Part shown: positions 3,058 to 10,878 of the stretch, piece after piece
Layout: each line of letters begins with the position of its first letter
Numbering within the stretch: the stretch's first letter is position 1
IMG/VR virus record: IMGVR_UViG_3300028394_000251
Coordinates: 1 to 28,914 of that record
Direction: 5' to 3' (one strand)
From: a virus
DNA: 28,914 bases
The notes under the pieces: model-generated
The model's database searches: none
What the model saw: only the letters and a program-made list of their open reading frames with translations
What the model was told of the DNA's origin: nothing
Position numbers and translations under genes: made by a program

Positions 3058-4685
3058 CACGCGCGCCTGCCTTGCCAAAAGTCTGTCAGGATGCCGAGAT
3101 AGCGCGCGACGTTGTATCCCTGCCAATTGGAGTGGCTACCCAATTGGAAGATGCACGCGCCGTCAAGCACAACAGGAAGGCTGCGTCGATACTCCAGCCA
3201 CCACGAGCACCAGCGCGCAAACTGATCGTCGGAGTAGCCAGCCCATGGGAAACCACCTGCGCCAGCTTCGACGCCAGTTTCGCCGCTTGTGTGGATCACG
3301 CGCTTGTCGCCTCCGCACTGTATCCAGAAAGATGAATCGCGTCCTTCGAACCATTTCGGATCATATGGCGTGTGTTTGTCAAAATGTCCGGGATGATCTA
3401 AAAACCGCTTGTATCGCGTATACAGGTGCCAGCCAATTTTTATTCGGCCTGTGTTCTGCACTGCGAAAGCGTAGTACGTTTCTTTGAACGCCTGCACGAT
3501 CTCTGGAGTTTCGGTGTCCGGCGTGCCGTGGCTGAACTCTCCAATGACGATTTTGCGCGACGGGTTCTTCGCCCACACGTTCTGCGCGAACGCCTTCTCG
3601 TACTCGAACCGCCGCCTCATCTCGTCAGGCGAGCCATATCCGATCCAGTCTCCCTCGTTTGCGCAGGTCGTCCACATGTTGCCTGGTATGTCTTTCAGCT
3701 CAGAGCCTGCGTGATCAGCCAGGAATTTAGGGTCAGGCGCGTTCTGAAACCAAAAGCGCGCCATGATGCGAGCATCTGGATACTGACGCGCTGCTGCGGC
3801 TGCGCCCATCAGGTTATCCATGAATAGCACGCTGCGACAGCCTCGCGCGAGTGCATCCATGCCTGCGTTGCCATCGTTCAGGCAGTTCACACCGAGCAGG
3901 TACTTGGCGTGCTTCCAATCGCTCACTGGCGGCACAACAGGCTGTGGAACGACGGGCTGTGGAACTACTGGCGTCGTCGTCGTGATCCACTGCCATCCAT
4001 CAGCGCGTACGTAGCCATCTCCGACACGGACATTGCCAGCAGTGACGCTAATACGCCCCCACTGCATCTTGTCGAGTCCCTGAACCATTGACAACACCTC
4101 GAACTCTGCGCCTGATTGCAGCACATATCCAGTTGCGGTGGAGGATGAAACACCAGGTGCCGATCTCACGTTCCACGAGCTGCTGCCTATTCGAGCGCGT
4201 CCCGATGTCTGTGGCATAGATGATTCTCCTTTCAACGTAACTCTGCATGGTGTGATGGACGACCAGCGCTGCGTGTTGCGTTCCGCATTGTCCAGCACAT
4301 ATTTGCTGCTCGTCATATTCGCGCCACCGTTACCATGGAACAGCGGGTCGTGATACGTGGTGTCTGACAGACGAACGATCCAATGCCCGAAGTCTCCGTT
4401 TGCCTGGTAGCGATGCTGCAAACTCCGGTAGTCCACCAGGGCGATATACGGGTATTCAGCGCTGGTCGTCGTGCGCAGCTGGATACCGACGTAATCACCC
4501 ATCGCAAGCAAATCGCGCTGCGTGGTGCCATCCTGTGGCGGATCAAAGCGCATCGATAGCTCAGTCACAGTTGCGCCGTTGGCTATTTCTGGCTTCGACG
4601 ATCCGCACAGCATCGCGATACACGCAGGCCCGCAGTCATTACCGCGCGGAGCGTTGTCGAGCTGATTGACATAGGGCACGTTCAT
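3057..4685 (-). CDS. Modular lysin: C39-like peptidase, SH3 and glycosidase-like domains
   Basis: 542 residues in three modules. Residues 1-150 form a C39/papain-like cysteine peptidase: VPYVNQLDN opening, Cys18 in NDCGPAC, His101 in GHWIVRL and Asp113 in YHDPLF give a complete triad. Residues about 160-235 resemble a bacterial SH3 wall-binding domain (WNVRSAPGV; GYVRADGWQW). A PVVPQPVVPQPVVPP linker leads to a C-terminal region of about 285 residues with a TIM-barrel glycosidase pattern, including two candidate catalytic glutamates in CANEGDW and GEFSHG. It probably cleaves host peptidoglycan at both peptide and sugar bonds. No signal peptide, so export would need the holin-like proteins encoded upstream. 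ATG at 4685 has AGGAGG 7 nt before it and an ATGA overlap with the methylase. A virion-associated wall hydrolase is the alternative. Confidence 0.85.
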   Translation of the reverse strand: MNVPYVNQLDNAPRGNDCGPACIAMLCGSSKPEIANGATVTELSMRFDPPQDGTTQRDLLAMGDYVGIQLRTTTSAEYPYIALVDYRSLQHRYQANGDFGHWIVRLSDTTYHDPLFHGNGGANMTSSKYVLDNAERNTQRWSSITPCRVTLKGESSMPQTSGRARIGSSSWNVRSAPGVSSSTATGYVLQSGAEFEVLSMVQGLDKMQWGRISVTAGNVRVGDGYVRADGWQWITTTTPVVPQPVVPQPVVPPVSDWKHAKYLLGVNCLNDGNAGMDALARGCRSVLFMDNLMGAAAAARQYPDARIMARFWFQNAPDPKFLADHAGSELKDIPGNMWTTCANEGDWIGYGSPDEMRRRFEYEKAFAQNVWAKNPSRKIVIGEFSHGTPDTETPEIVQAFKETYYAFAVQNTGRIKIGWHLYTRYKRFLDHPGHFDKHTPYDPKWFEGRDSSFWIQCGGDKRVIHTSGETGVEAGAGGFPWAGYSDDQFARWCSWWLEYRRSLPVVLDGACIFQLGSHSNWQGYNVARYLGILTDFWQGRRA

Positions 4686-5968
4686 ACAAATGCCTCCTGC
4701 GTAGCGCGCTCTCGCGTCCAATGCTCCAGCCGCGCGCGTGCGATTCGCGCGTAGTCAGCTTCGCGCTCCACGCCGACGACGGTGTGCCATCCTGCGAGCG
4801 CGGCTCCGATGCACTCCGATCCACTGCCAGCGAATGGAACGAGGATCCTCGATTCGACGTGCTGAGGTGGAAGAATCAGCGCTGCGAGATATTGCGTGAG
4901 CGCGAGAGGCTTTACCGTCGGATGGTAATTGGCCCTTGGGATTGTCGGAGGCAGCCCAGCCTCAGCGCGCTTCCGGGAGCCTTCTCCGTATTGATTCCCG
5001 GGCTTCGTTGAGTCACGACCGCTCGTCTCGTCAACGTTACCGACACTAGCGACGCGAACCTCAAATCCATCCATCCCCTCTTCTCTCTCGCGCTTCCCAG
5101 CCTTCGCGCAGTAGAAGAATCGCGCGGCGTCTCCGAGGACTTCCGCCGTCTCATCGCTGCCGTCGTAGATGATGTTCGCTGGCCAGCGGCCAAGTAATTC
5201 TAAAGGGTGATATGTATTCCCGCCGACGCGACTTTCCTTGCCAATTGATACACTCTGAATTGCTTTTCCGTTTGCGCGGGAATTCGCAAAACCAGTAGCA
5301 GCAGCAGCAGCATCAGCATCAGCCTTATTTGCCCAGCTCACCCTCGCCCCGTCGATGTTCAAAGCGCCAGTGCCGTGCTCCAACGCATTCTGCGCCACGG
5401 TGCCTTCGAGCGGGTTCCTCGCGACGATGACAGGCTCCCACGCAGGCTTCAGCGCTGTGCCGTAGCCCTGCCATGCGCGAGCAGCGTCTGTAGCAGGCTC
5501 TCCCCCAGCTACCTCATGGTACCCGAGCAGTCTCGACTTCTCGATCCACGGATATGAAACCATATTGCCCGAAAAAGTGCCGGATTTTTCTGCTCTCGGC
5601 TTCATCCGTATTGTTTCCCGTTCCGCCCCAGCCTCTCGGTCAATCGCCTTGCTCACGTCGTGAGACTTCGGGAATCCTGTGCCGTAGAGCCACCCGAGCG
5701 TATCGCGAATTTCGAAGCCTGCGTCCTCGATGGCTACCGCGATCCTGTGGAAAGTCCTGGTGCCACCGAACGCCAGCAGATGCGCGCCGGGTGCGAGGAG
5801 CGATCGAATTGCAAGCCACGTCTCAGCGCGAAACGACACGCCGCGCGAATCCCACGACTTGTTCATGAACCCCAGCTCATACGGAGGATCGCAGAGCACG
5901 GCGTGAAATTTCGGCCCGTGATAGTGCGCTGCGAAGCGCATGATGTCGCCGTTCACGATTCGATGCAT
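4682..5968 (-). CDS. DNA adenine-N6 or cytosine-N4 methyltransferase, beta class
   Basis: 428 residues; transfers a methyl group from S-adenosylmethionine to an exocyclic amino group in DNA. Motif IV (DPPYELGFMNKSWD) is near the N-terminus and the SAM-binding motif I (PFAGSGSECIGAALAGW) near the C-terminus, the order that defines the beta class. HPTVKP, typical of the class, precedes motif I. The middle (about residues 150-330) would hold the target recognition domain. DPPY fits either N6A or N4C. No restriction enzyme is nearby, so it looks like an orphan protective methylase. It sits between the holin-like genes and the lysin, starting at a TGATG junction with AAGGA upstream. Confidence 0.92.
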   Translation of the reverse strand: MHRIVNGDIMRFAAHYHGPKFHAVLCDPPYELGFMNKSWDSRGVSFRAETWLAIRSLLAPGAHLLAFGGTRTFHRIAVAIEDAGFEIRDTLGWLYGTGFPKSHDVSKAIDREAGAERETIRMKPRAEKSGTFSGNMVSYPWIEKSRLLGYHEVAGGEPATDAARAWQGYGTALKPAWEPVIVARNPLEGTVAQNALEHGTGALNIDGARVSWANKADADAAAAATGFANSRANGKAIQSVSIGKESRVGGNTYHPLELLGRWPANIIYDGSDETAEVLGDAARFFYCAKAGKREREEGMDGFEVRVASVGNVDETSGRDSTKPGNQYGEGSRKRAEAGLPPTIPRANYHPTVKPLALTQYLAALILPPQHVESRILVPFAGSGSECIGAALAGWHTVVGVEREADYARIARARLEHWTRERATQEAFV

Positions 5969-7831: not shown

Positions 7832-8404
7832 TAGAGCGGTCACCGGTGAATCCTGCTGATCCTGATATTTGCCGCCACGATCCGCGTATGTCGTTTTCGG
7901 ACGCTGGTCGAGGGGCATGAACACAAGCTGCGCGATTCCTTCTTCGGTGTAGACGCGAATTGGCAGCTGTCCAACGTTGCTGAGTTCAAGCGTGATGTGC
8001 CCACGCCACCCAGCTTCGATCGGCGTCGCGTTGACAAGCAGTCCGCAGCGCGCATACGTTGACTTTCCGATGCATAGCGCCATCACGTCGTCTGGCATGT
8101 CGATGTGTTCGAGCGTGGCGCCGAGCACGCATTCACCAGGTCGCAACTCAAAGAATCGTTTGTGGGGATCGAAGGTAAACACGTCGTCCCATTGCTTTTC
8201 ATCTTGAAATTTAGGATCAATGGTTGCCTTGCCGAAAAAACTTTGCGCCTTGAACTGGCGCGCCAAACGAACGTCATAGCCATTGCACGATGTGCCGTAG
8301 CTGATTACTTTTTTGAATGTTTCATCGATGCGCACCTGCTGCGCCAGGAATGGCGTAATGCGTTCGCTCATTCTTTCTATAATTGTTTTGTCAGACCAGA
8401 CCAT
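7826..8404 (-). CDS. dcd: dCTP deaminase
   Basis: 192 residues, the usual size of Dcd. Deaminates dCTP to dUTP, feeding dTTP synthesis. Diagnostic stretches are the trimer-forming CIGKSTYARCGLLVNATP, the active-site segment IEAGWRGHITLELSN with the catalytic Glu, and the C-terminal lid GIAQLVFMPLDQRPKTTYADRGGKYQDQ. The usual I-D-P-G before the catalytic strand is I-E-A-G here. ATG at 8404 has GGGG just upstream and overlaps the zinc-ribbon gene by 14 nt; the frame is open further upstream but that part lies in the other gene and lacks family similarity. A bifunctional dCTP deaminase/dUTPase cannot be excluded. Confidence 0.92.
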   Translation of the reverse strand: MVWSDKTIIERMSERITPFLAQQVRIDETFKKVISYGTSCNGYDVRLARQFKAQSFFGKATIDPKFQDEKQWDDVFTFDPHKRFFELRPGECVLGATLEHIDMPDDVMALCIGKSTYARCGLLVNATPIEAGWRGHITLELSNVGQLPIRVYTEEGIAQLVFMPLDQRPKTTYADRGGKYQDQQDSPVTALI

Positions 8405-9758
8405 ATTCCCCCTGAAGTTTTTTTTCATCTTTGGCGGCTTGACGTTTTGCGCGCAAATGATTTGCAGCACGTTCTCTGGTTTCAGCAAGGCCGCGTTCGT
8501 AATAACCAATTCCCATACGCTTTGAGATTTCCTTGATTATATTTTCTGTCCTGATGATTTTGCTGACAGGAATTTTGATTTTTTGTTTTTCAATCTCGAT
8601 TGTTGCGATGCCGTTGCTGATCTGCGTAATGCATCCAGCATCGCTGGTTTCGATCAGGCGCTCATTGCCATCAATGACCATGTATCGAGCGCTCATTACG
8701 ATTACGCGCGCGCCGACATCGCACAGCTCAGTAATAGTTTTGACGCGCAAGCGATGCAGTATGTAATCTCTGCATTCTTCGCTGCAGCAGTCTGAGATGG
8801 CGGCAGTGCGCTCGATCTCAATTCTACAGGCTTTGCACTTGATTGTTTTTGAAATCTTGATCGCAGGTTGCGGTGGTGGCACTGGTGCCAGCGATGACAC
8901 AACGATTAACTTGCGCTGATCAGCGCGCATCAACCTCACCCGGTTAACTTCGCGTTTTCTGTAACATTCCCGCGAACATACAGATATGTTTGATTTCTCA
9001 CTTGCCAAAAATTTATTTTGGCAGACCGTGCATTCGCGGTCTACCATGTTTTTTTTCTGACGCTTCAGCCGAAGATTTCGCGCGTCAGAACATTGAGCTG
9101 AACATGTCATCGTCAGCGGATGCCGCTTTTTAAACTCCTTCTGGCACTCGCTGCAATGCGTCACAAAAGCCACGAATTTGCTTAGCCGAAGTTTTTCGTA
9201 CGATTGTTTTTTTAGCCTGTAGGTGTGCATTTTTGCGCATTCTGCGCTACATGTGACCTGGTAATGATCGGTCACGTACTCAGATTCGCAGACCTTGCAA
9301 ATGCGCGTTTTCATTTGTTGGCTGTGCGTGGCGGCGTCTTCCTCGTTTGCTTTGCGTATCTCAGCTGCGCGCTCTCTATCCGCGTAGATGGCTGCCCTTG
9401 TACACGCAGCACAGCGTATCTGGTGGACGTGATTCCGCTTAAAGCCATTCCCGCACACTGGACAGGCTGGAAGAGGCTTAGTGGCCTTGGTTTGCGTTTT
9501 CAAGCAGTCTCTGCACTGCGTCTGATACTGATTGCTGCGCAGGAATGCCTTGCTGCACTGCGCGCACGCGATTGCGCGCGCCTTGAATTTTGCCAGCTGC
9601 TTGGCGTATGTGTCTTTCAGCAGATGGTGGCGCGCTGCCTCGACTTGCTTTTCGCGGGTGCTGCTGCATGCAGCCGAGCAGCACAGTTGCCGAGAATTCC
9701 GCGGAACGAAATTTGTTTCGCAGATGATGCAGCGTTTCGCAAAAAATACCTGGCGCAT
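8391..9758 (-). CDS. Tandem zinc-ribbon protein, seven Cys4 modules
   Basis: 455 residues with seven CxxC-x(12-14)-CxxC/CxxxC modules at about residues 10-31, 65-85, 99-119, 154-174, 202-223, 243-265 and 308-329. Each has the pattern C-x2-C-x3-[F/Y/I]-x(8-10)-C-S-x2-C known from single zinc ribbons of many phage proteins. Basic, helical linkers of 14-42 residues separate them. A Cys-poor C-terminal region (about 335-455) has beta strands (DVGARVIVMSARYMVIDG; NGIATIEIEKQKIKIPVS), possibly SH3-like, then a basic helix. It probably binds nucleic acid, but no family for the whole protein is known to me. ATG 9758 lies in a TGATG overlap with a 44-residue zinc-ribbon gene, with AAGGGGG upstream. 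Confidence 0.85.
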   Translation of the reverse strand: MRQVFFAKRCIICETNFVPRNSRQLCCSAACSSTREKQVEAARHHLLKDTYAKQLAKFKARAIACAQCSKAFLRSNQYQTQCRDCLKTQTKATKPLPACPVCGNGFKRNHVHQIRCAACTRAAIYADRERAAEIRKANEEDAATHSQQMKTRICKVCESEYVTDHYQVTCSAECAKMHTYRLKKQSYEKLRLSKFVAFVTHCSECQKEFKKRHPLTMTCSAQCSDARNLRLKRQKKNMVDRECTVCQNKFLASEKSNISVCSRECYRKREVNRVRLMRADQRKLIVVSSLAPVPPPQPAIKISKTIKCKACRIEIERTAAISDCCSEECRDYILHRLRVKTITELCDVGARVIVMSARYMVIDGNERLIETSDAGCITQISNGIATIEIEKQKIKIPVSKIIRTENIIKEISKRMGIGYYERGLAETRERAANHLRAKRQAAKDEKKLQGEYGLV

Positions 9759-9892
9759 CAGAAGCCCCCTTCGTCGTATCTGATCAGGTTCTGCGCCGAA
9801 TAATGTTTCCTGCGGCATTCGGCGCTGCAAGTTTTTTGGTTCTTCGCGTATTTGTTTGGCTCAAACTGGCTTCCGCAAATAATGCAATTCAT
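9758..9892 (-). CDS. 44-residue single zinc-ribbon protein
   Basis: A short gene encoding one C-x2-C-x14-CSAEC zinc ribbon (CIICGSQFEPN ... KTCSAECRRK), the same module found seven times in the next gene. It ends in the acidic tail RYDEGGF. Its ATG overlaps the stop of the ORF overprinted on the C5 methylase (ATGA), and its stop overlaps the start of the large zinc-ribbon gene (TGATG). GGAG lies about 8 nt upstream. The tight coupling on both sides and the intact cysteine pattern show it is a real gene. Confidence 0.8.
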   Translation of the reverse strand: MNCIICGSQFEPNKYAKNQKTCSAECRRKHYSAQNLIRYDEGGF

Positions 9893-10785
9893 AGTTCATT
9901 CTCCGCCGAGAATGCGCCATGCAAGCGCCGCCACTGCTGGAACTTGTCCGTTGCCAATGGCCTTAAGTCTGTCCACTCGAGCGGCCATCCCATGAGCCAC
10001 TCTACCCACGTCGGGTTCAGCTGCCCACCATTGCCGGCTCCCATCATTCGCGCTTCCTCGATCGTCGTTGCTTCCTTCAGCTTCTGCCATGCTCCCGATC
10101 CTCCGCACATGCCTTTCGTGCGCGGCGTTGGCCAGTGCACTTCCGCTCCCAAGTTCGGCGACTTTCGATTGCCGGATTTTGCTGTGTCCTTCCAGTCGCG
10201 CGCCATCGGCGTCGGCCACATCCGTACTGCCGTTGCCAGGCCATCCACGCGATTCACTGAGTCGTTCGCTACGGGCGTTTGCCGCAATCCAGATTCTGTC
10301 GCGTCGGTGCGGCGCGCCAACGTCGATTGCTCCGAGCACTCCCCATCGCGCATCAAACCCCATCGAGGCCAGGTCTCCGAGTACTCGTCCGAGCCCTCTA
10401 GCAGTGAGCATTGGCGAGTTCTCCACGAGGACGTATCGCGGTCGAACTTCACGAATGATCCGGGCCATCTCCACCCAGAGTCCTGATTTGCCGCCATCGA
10501 TGCCTGCTCCTCGTCCTGCTGCACTGATGTCCTGACATGGAAACCCTCCCGATACGACATCAACAATTCCTCGCCACGGTCGGCCGTCAAATGTACAAAC
10601 GTCATCCCAAATCGGGAAAGGCGGGAGTAGGCCGTCGTTTTGTCGCTGCACAAGCACCCCCGCTGCGTAGGCGTCTCGCTCGACTGCGCAGACTGTGTGC
10701 CATCCGAGCAGATGCCCTCCGAGGATTCCACCACCTGCTCCCGCGAAGAGAGCAAGCTCATTAACGCATTGCTTATGATCCACAT
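9889..10785 (-). CDS. Overprinted gene inside the C5 methylase (Dcm-overlapping phage protein)
   Basis: 298 codons without a stop, same strand, different frame, covering the whole C5 methylase gene. I recognise features seen in separately annotated phage proteins: FGMTFVHLTADRGEELL, YREGFHVRTS, a SSWRTRQCSLLEG block, SETWPRWGLMRDGE, two WPTP motifs and NPTWVEWLMGWP...WTDLRPL. The ATG at 10785 shares one AAGGAG with the methylase GTG at 10783 (ATGTG), and its TGA overlaps the ATG of the next gene as ATGA. These junctions, and a chance of order one in a million for so long an open frame in neutral sequence, support translation. Function unknown; no catalytic motif recognised. The alternative is that similarity to known proteins only reflects the conserved methylase read in a shifted frame. 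Confidence 0.6.
   Translation of the reverse strand: MWIISNALMSLLSSREQVVESSEGICSDGTQSAQSSETPTQRGCLCSDKTTAYSRLSRFGMTFVHLTADRGEELLMSYREGFHVRTSVQQDEEQASMAANQDSGWRWPGSFVKFDRDTSSWRTRQCSLLEGSDEYSETWPRWGLMRDGECSEQSTLARRTDATESGLRQTPVANDSVNRVDGLATAVRMWPTPMARDWKDTAKSGNRKSPNLGAEVHWPTPRTKGMCGGSGAWQKLKEATTIEEARMMGAGNGGQLNPTWVEWLMGWPLEWTDLRPLATDKFQQWRRLHGAFSAENEL
9896..10783 (-). CDS. DNA cytosine-5 methyltransferase
   Basis: 295 residues. Methylates C5 of cytosine in a specific DNA site using SAM. Motif I ELALFAGAGGGILGG is at the N-terminus; the catalytic Cys is in GGFPCQDISAAGRG; motif VI is ENSPMLTARG (ENS in place of the usual ENV); motif VIII APHRRDRIWIAA; and motifs IX-X close the protein with VDRLKAIGNGQVPAVAALAW. 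The stretch between VIII and IX, the target recognition domain, is short (about 85 residues). GTG 10783 is chosen because AAGGAG lies 6 nt upstream; longer in-frame starts lack a Shine-Dalgarno. No cognate restriction enzyme is present, suggesting protection from host restriction. Another long ORF is read from the same DNA in a second frame. Confidence 0.93.
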   Translation of the reverse strand: MDHKQCVNELALFAGAGGGILGGHLLGWHTVCAVERDAYAAGVLVQRQNDGLLPPFPIWDDVCTFDGRPWRGIVDVVSGGFPCQDISAAGRGAGIDGGKSGLWVEMARIIREVRPRYVLVENSPMLTARGLGRVLGDLASMGFDARWGVLGAIDVGAPHRRDRIWIAANARSERLSESRGWPGNGSTDVADADGARLEGHSKIRQSKVAELGSGSALANAAHERHVRRIGSMAEAEGSNDDRGSANDGSRQWWAAEPDVGRVAHGMAARVDRLKAIGNGQVPAVAALAWRILGGE

Positions 10786-10878
10786 TTTTCTCCTTCAACT
10801 CAACAAACCCCCGCGTCCGGCTCTTGCATGAGCCGCTCAATGGTCATATCGGCGCGCACTGCGGGATCAACCAAGGGA
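10784..10878. other. 95-bp gap with small hairpin before the methylase RBS
   Basis: Between the loader-like gene and the methylase. On the minus strand a CGGCTC-ATGCAA-GAGCCG hairpin (about 10837-10820) precedes the AAGGAG site. A 15-codon ORF covers it but has no Shine-Dalgarno. No promoter is evident. Confidence 0.4.

Follow-up and report, generated by a model that had tools for sequence, protein, structure and literature searches.

Two long open reading frames lie almost exactly on top of one another on the minus strand of a 28,914-base virus record (the window), raising the question of whether both are genes and, if so, what the second encodes. The original prediction proposed a full-length dual-coding pair of 295 and 298 codons covering the same ~890 bp in different frames, in which one frame is a C5 methylase and the other an independent second gene, perhaps representing a protein family born by overprinting. 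Both frames are indeed present. Here, we combine profile searches, structure prediction, comparison of relatives and tests of selection on each frame, and find that the overlap is genuine and that both frames are under selection. The two products, which we call alpha and beta (ORF2), are very probably parts of one putative C5-cytosine methyltransferase.

Layout of the locus

Read from its GTG, alpha is entirely contained in beta, one frame apart, with a shared stretch of about 890 bases (Table 1); an in-frame TTG upstream, at 10840, is a possible alternative start for alpha and would extend it to 9896-10840. As originally noticed, both starts sit in ATGTG (10785-10781) behind a single Shine-Dalgarno sequence common to the two, AAGGAG at 10795-10790, with start codons 2 nt apart in the window and 2-4 nt apart overall. 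The observation that the beta stop overlaps the next start also proved accurate: the TGA at 9891-9889 and the ATG at 9892-9890 of a 44-codon CxxC ORF form an ATGA, which suggests translational coupling.

The record also encodes a capsid protein, a tape measure protein, an SSB, an O-like replication protein, a dCTP deaminase and, at 4685-5968 on the minus strand, a second DNA methylase of N4/N6 type (PF01555, 7.5e-12), so that DNA modification genes of two kinds are present in this phage. Just after the alpha/beta pair, 8394-9830 of the minus strand encodes a protein with many CxxC knuckles and a weak HNH endonuclease profile match (phrog_1271, 5e-16).

Table 1 Features of the alpha/beta locus in the window.
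Feature	Position	Strand	Remarks
Alpha, C5-cytosine methyltransferase large domain	9896..10783	-	295 codons + TGA, GTG start
Beta (ORF2)	9889..10785	-	298 codons + TGA, ATG start, +1 frame relative to alpha
Shine-Dalgarno AAGGAG	10790..10795	-	4 nt 5' of beta ATG, 6 nt 5' of alpha GTG
44-codon CxxC (zinc-finger-like) ORF	9758..9892	-	ATG at 9892-9890 overlaps beta stop
Family-wide beta start ATG	10759..10761	-	Falls in the Asn-Glu codons of alpha (aATGAG); residue 9 of window beta
Alpha motif I FAGAGGG (SAM binding)	10727..10747	-	
Alpha motif IV GGFPCQDIS	10523..10549	-	Catalytic Cys invariant
Alpha motif VI ENSP	10412..10423	-	Glu-Asn invariant
Alpha motif VIII region GAPHRRDRIW	10289..10318	-	
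Alpha middle segment facing beta cassettes and motif IX	9980..10279	-	Mostly poorly conserved, predicted disordered
Alpha motif X RVDRLKAIGNGQVP	9938..9979	-	
Beta block SETWPRWGLMRDGE	10339..10380	-	Alpha 135-170: third-base identity 0.68 (expected 0.32)
Beta WPTP cassettes, putative target-recognition region	10087..10245	-	Two here, 0-4 in relatives
Beta motif IX QLNPTWVEWLMGWPLEWTDL	9964..10023	-	Conserved, supplies motif missing from alpha

Complementary motif content of the two frames

Alpha matches PF00145 (1e-28) and phrog_363 (2e-69), which bears out its identification as a C5 methylase, but its PF00145 match covers only profile positions 5-168 of 324. Motifs I-VIII and X are present and motif IX is absent; the complete set of motifs I-X in a single chain, a feature of monomeric PF00145 enzymes, is not found in the window. 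The catalytic PC, EN, RxR and GN are kept across 61 alphas. In an AlphaFold model of alpha, the large domain and the motif X helix are confident and the middle (residues 187-256) is disordered (pLDDT <50); the best PDB match of the model is M.HhaI (E 4e-15). One structure prediction used an alignment whose rows came from the window, viral contigs and genome contigs only.

The blocks recognized at the outset in the second frame do belong to a real phage protein family, as beta matches phrog_1008 (5.6e-28) over residues 50-274; the profile search found no Pfam family for it. The core of motif IX, LNPTWVEWLMGWP, lies in the C-terminal half of beta. Modeled alone, beta gave no confident AlphaFold fold (mean pLDDT 59, pTM 0.24) and its model no Foldseek match, so that its identity as a small domain rests on sequence. 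Cassette number can be high: the beta of one relative (L226, 2878-4392) has at least five tandem PTP cassettes of ~30-45 residues, which suggests modular gain and loss.

The +1 frame is kept open across relatives

We next asked how the second frame fares in relatives. A tblastn search with beta returned 127 phage records, all below 60% identity, and alpha/beta relatives with both frames intact are spread across phages, bacteria and archaea. At every locus where both could be placed, a methylase has the N-terminal and middle part of beta in its +1 frame. Searches of phage, plasmid, viral and genome sequences yielded no free-standing ORF2 homologue, and no locus with beta and without alpha; only the C-terminal part of ORF2 occurs elsewhere, in frame within single-chain enzymes.

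Stop codons in the +1 frame are depleted far beyond chance across relatives, and the proposal of a full-length dual-coding pair is supported. By synonymous-codon permutation, the window gene alone has 0 against 3.2 expected (p ~0.01), and 131 non-redundant loci have 229 against 813 expected, while the +2 frame of the same loci shows no depletion (2335 versus 1899 expected). Nearly all of these +1 stops fall at the two ends, with interior stops in just 6 of the 131 loci. Over alpha motifs I-VI, 209 non-redundant loci contain 30 +1 stops against 507 expected, all 30 before about codon 60, and the frame is wholly open there in 195 of the 209, compared with 15.4 expected. Part of the loci were chosen by ORF2 similarity, which biases them towards open frames; among 49 non-redundant loci chosen by alpha similarity, 48 are open and one has an interior stop, so that within this set homologous methylases with a broken second frame, which would have spoken against dual coding, number only one. 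In bacterial loci L193, L204, L206 and L208 the alpha frame is stopped and the beta frame open, which could reflect decay or assembly error. An Escherichia coli PCP07014 prophage copy (L262, 3001-3762), annotated by PGAP as a pseudogene with an internal stop, has both frames broken at about the same place.

The start of beta is preserved as well. Its ATG lies four bases past the alpha start codon in 119 of 131 loci, and the overlapping Asn-Glu codons read AAT-GAR in 197 of 198, whereas at other Asn positions AAC outnumbers AAT (432:249).

Selection acts on both frames

To locate this selection, we computed four-fold third-base identity within pairs below 55% alpha identity. Synonymous sites proved near-frozen under the conserved ORF2 blocks, with identities of 0.934 against 0.310 expected in the motif IX block and 0.682 against 0.318 in the SETWPRWG block; N-terminal alpha blocks of the same pairs gave 0.39-0.50 against 0.31-0.32. 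Mean third-base conservation across the first 185 codons of alpha did not rise above the level of single-chain relatives, so sequence constraint on the N-terminal half of beta is weak. The dCTP deaminase control for synonymous sites comprised two loci only.

In the motif IX block, base entropies at the three alpha codon positions were 0.63 (H1), 0.17 (H2) and 0.18 (H3), such that the first position of alpha behaves like the third position of beta. Codon periodicity there tracks beta, whose entropy is 0.27 bits against 0.60 for alpha. The WPTP blocks point in the same direction (beta 1.80 versus alpha 2.63; beta 1.98 versus alpha 2.55), and over most of the alpha middle segment entropy is lower in the beta frame than in the alpha frame. 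Together, the block-wise third-base and entropy results indicate that the C-terminal half of beta is strongly constrained as a protein and that its N-terminal half is mainly kept open.

We rejected an RNA or DNA element as the source of the synonymous constraint: the motif IX block has fixed second and third alpha positions but freely varying first ones. A spurious ORF was likewise rejected on account of the +1 stop depletion, the near-frozen synonymous sites and the greater conservation of beta in its own blocks.

Single-chain relatives and frame arrangements

In C5 methyltransferases, the recognition domain lies between motifs VIII and IX. A profile of the beta C-terminal half matches single-chain actinophage enzymes in frame (L290, 2.7e-13; L271, 8.4e-11), with hhalign values of 97.7-98.4%, and L271 covers PF00145 positions 1-314 of 324, whereas the alpha match ends at 168. 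At the residue level, alignment of the single-chain motif IX block with M.HhaI is colinear, though not significant on its own. This in-frame homology means that beta carries motif IX and the region between motifs VIII and IX, and it led us to reject beta as an unrelated overprinted protein. The idea of an independent second gene is not supported, since the C-terminal half is homologous to the variable region and motif IX of single-chain enzymes. Birth by overprinting survives in part: it holds for the beta N-terminal half and the alpha middle, and fails for the beta C-terminal half, which has in-frame single-chain homologues.

A census of frames placed motif IX in +1 and motif X in frame 0 at 257 loci. 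Single-chain enzymes, L271 among them, have both motifs in frame 0, and both are in +1 at L219, L226, L244 and L248. At these four loci the alpha frame ends soon after motif VIII, and the cassettes, IX and X are all in +1, resembling M.AquI with a long nested N-terminus. A possible third arrangement, with IX and X in the alpha frame and PTP cassettes in an open +1 frame, occurs in L259 (Gordonia phage CheeseTouch gp88) and L264-L270. In Mycobacterium phage Seabastian (L257), three frames share the methylase motifs, and the annotation shows two methylase genes (75/76).

Discussion

Because the C-terminal half of beta is homologous to the variable region and motif IX of single-chain enzymes, beta most plausibly completes the enzyme to which alpha belongs, and the pair very probably constitutes one putative two-polypeptide C5-cytosine methyltransferase. 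Alpha would supply the large domain for SAM binding and catalysis (motifs I-VIII and helix X). Beta, read in the +1 frame of the same mRNA from a start 2-4 nt away, would supply small-domain parts, namely the putative recognition cassettes and motif IX. We infer that beta is translated and that the two chains assemble into one enzyme split along the domain boundary. Probably the starting point was one chain, and frame changes on either side of the recognition region and motif IX may have put these into +1; a second start would then have kept this segment alive. Two newly overprinted stretches would have resulted, the beta N-terminal half, selected mainly for openness, and the disordered alpha middle.

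Other explanations account for some of these observations. Programmed frameshifting or slippage from alpha into +1 would join motifs I-VIII to the recognition region and IX in one fused chain that needs no separate start, and at L219, L226, L244 and L248, where alpha ends soon after VIII and IX and X lie in +1, one shift would restore a full chain. We nevertheless consider this route improbable, as it leaves unexplained both the scarcity of +1 stops 5' of any shift site (30 versus 507 expected) and the AAT-GAR pair that keeps the beta ATG in 197 of 198 loci, and the fusion in the window would be without motif X, which is in frame 0. Still less probable is a separate protein with an independent function, such as a regulator or anti-restriction factor unrelated to methylation. 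The restriction of recognizable homology to the C-terminal half of beta, together with its lack of a Pfam family, is compatible with such a protein, but that half matches in-frame methyltransferase segments, beta has precisely the motif missing from alpha, and it was never seen without alpha at any locus that our searches covered. Hardly credible, finally, is an untranslated ORF2 that arises from conserved alpha sequence together with codon bias. Similarity in the wrong frame is to be anticipated over conserved stretches of alpha, and single-chain relatives are also similar in +1 over motifs VI-VIII, yet stop depletion is limited to +1, synonymous sites are frozen under beta motifs, the motif IX and WPTP blocks are more conserved in beta than in alpha, and the same segment is found in frame elsewhere.

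A single enzyme made of two nested polypeptides, the reading we favor, has partial precedents. The small subunit (beta, ~176 aa) of M.EcoHK31I (YGGCCR), a two-polypeptide C5 enzyme, is read from an alternative frame within the large gene. Its larger subunit contains motifs I-VIII and X and its smaller subunit motif IX, while M.AquI (CYCGRG), also a C5 enzyme in two chains, has motif X together with IX in the small subunit (PMC3404938). By this published motif description, the partition in the window is like that of M.EcoHK31I. The putative small-subunit frame of the window likewise lies inside the large gene. The window differs in that beta extends over the whole of alpha (starts 2-4 nt apart); in having conserved cassettes in beta and a predicted disordered alpha middle, where the recognition domain of M.EcoHK31I is predicted in alpha; and in being phage-encoded, with no restriction enzyme visible. 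Unlike in M.AquI, motif X of the window is in alpha; IX and X occur together in the second frame at the four loci named above. The single-chain actinophage enzymes L271 and L290 have LLPTP-type cassettes, IX and X homologous to the C-termini of window beta and alpha, but there these elements share a single frame and chain. Paenibacillus phage Diva gp50, annotated as 'g49 internal gene', DNA methyltransferase, is another +1-frame gene that carries motif IX and is nested in a cytosine methyltransferase gene (gp49), although its beta begins ~60 codons into alpha. Our literature search found no description of the alpha/beta family as a nested gene; as far as we searched, the near-complete overlap, the spread over phages, bacteria and archaea, the location of the cassettes in beta and the set of frame arrangements appear to be new.

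A broader scenario, which we put forward tentatively and at slightly less than even confidence, is that these enzymes form a large family that converts repeatedly between one chain and a nested two-chain form as cassettes, IX and X shift frames, that nesting locks the catalytic and specificity subunits together, and that the cassettes are exchangeable recognition modules varying in number. On our main reading the cassettes would act as recognition modules, and the enzyme would likely serve to methylate phage DNA against host restriction.

Overlaps of ~290 codons on one strand, in which both frames visibly experience selection, are rare. Because single-chain members and intermediates are available for comparison with the nested form, one can test how dual coding arose and what it costs. 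For this family, database entries for either frame alone would describe only part of the enzyme, and alpha expressed alone from such phages may give no activity.
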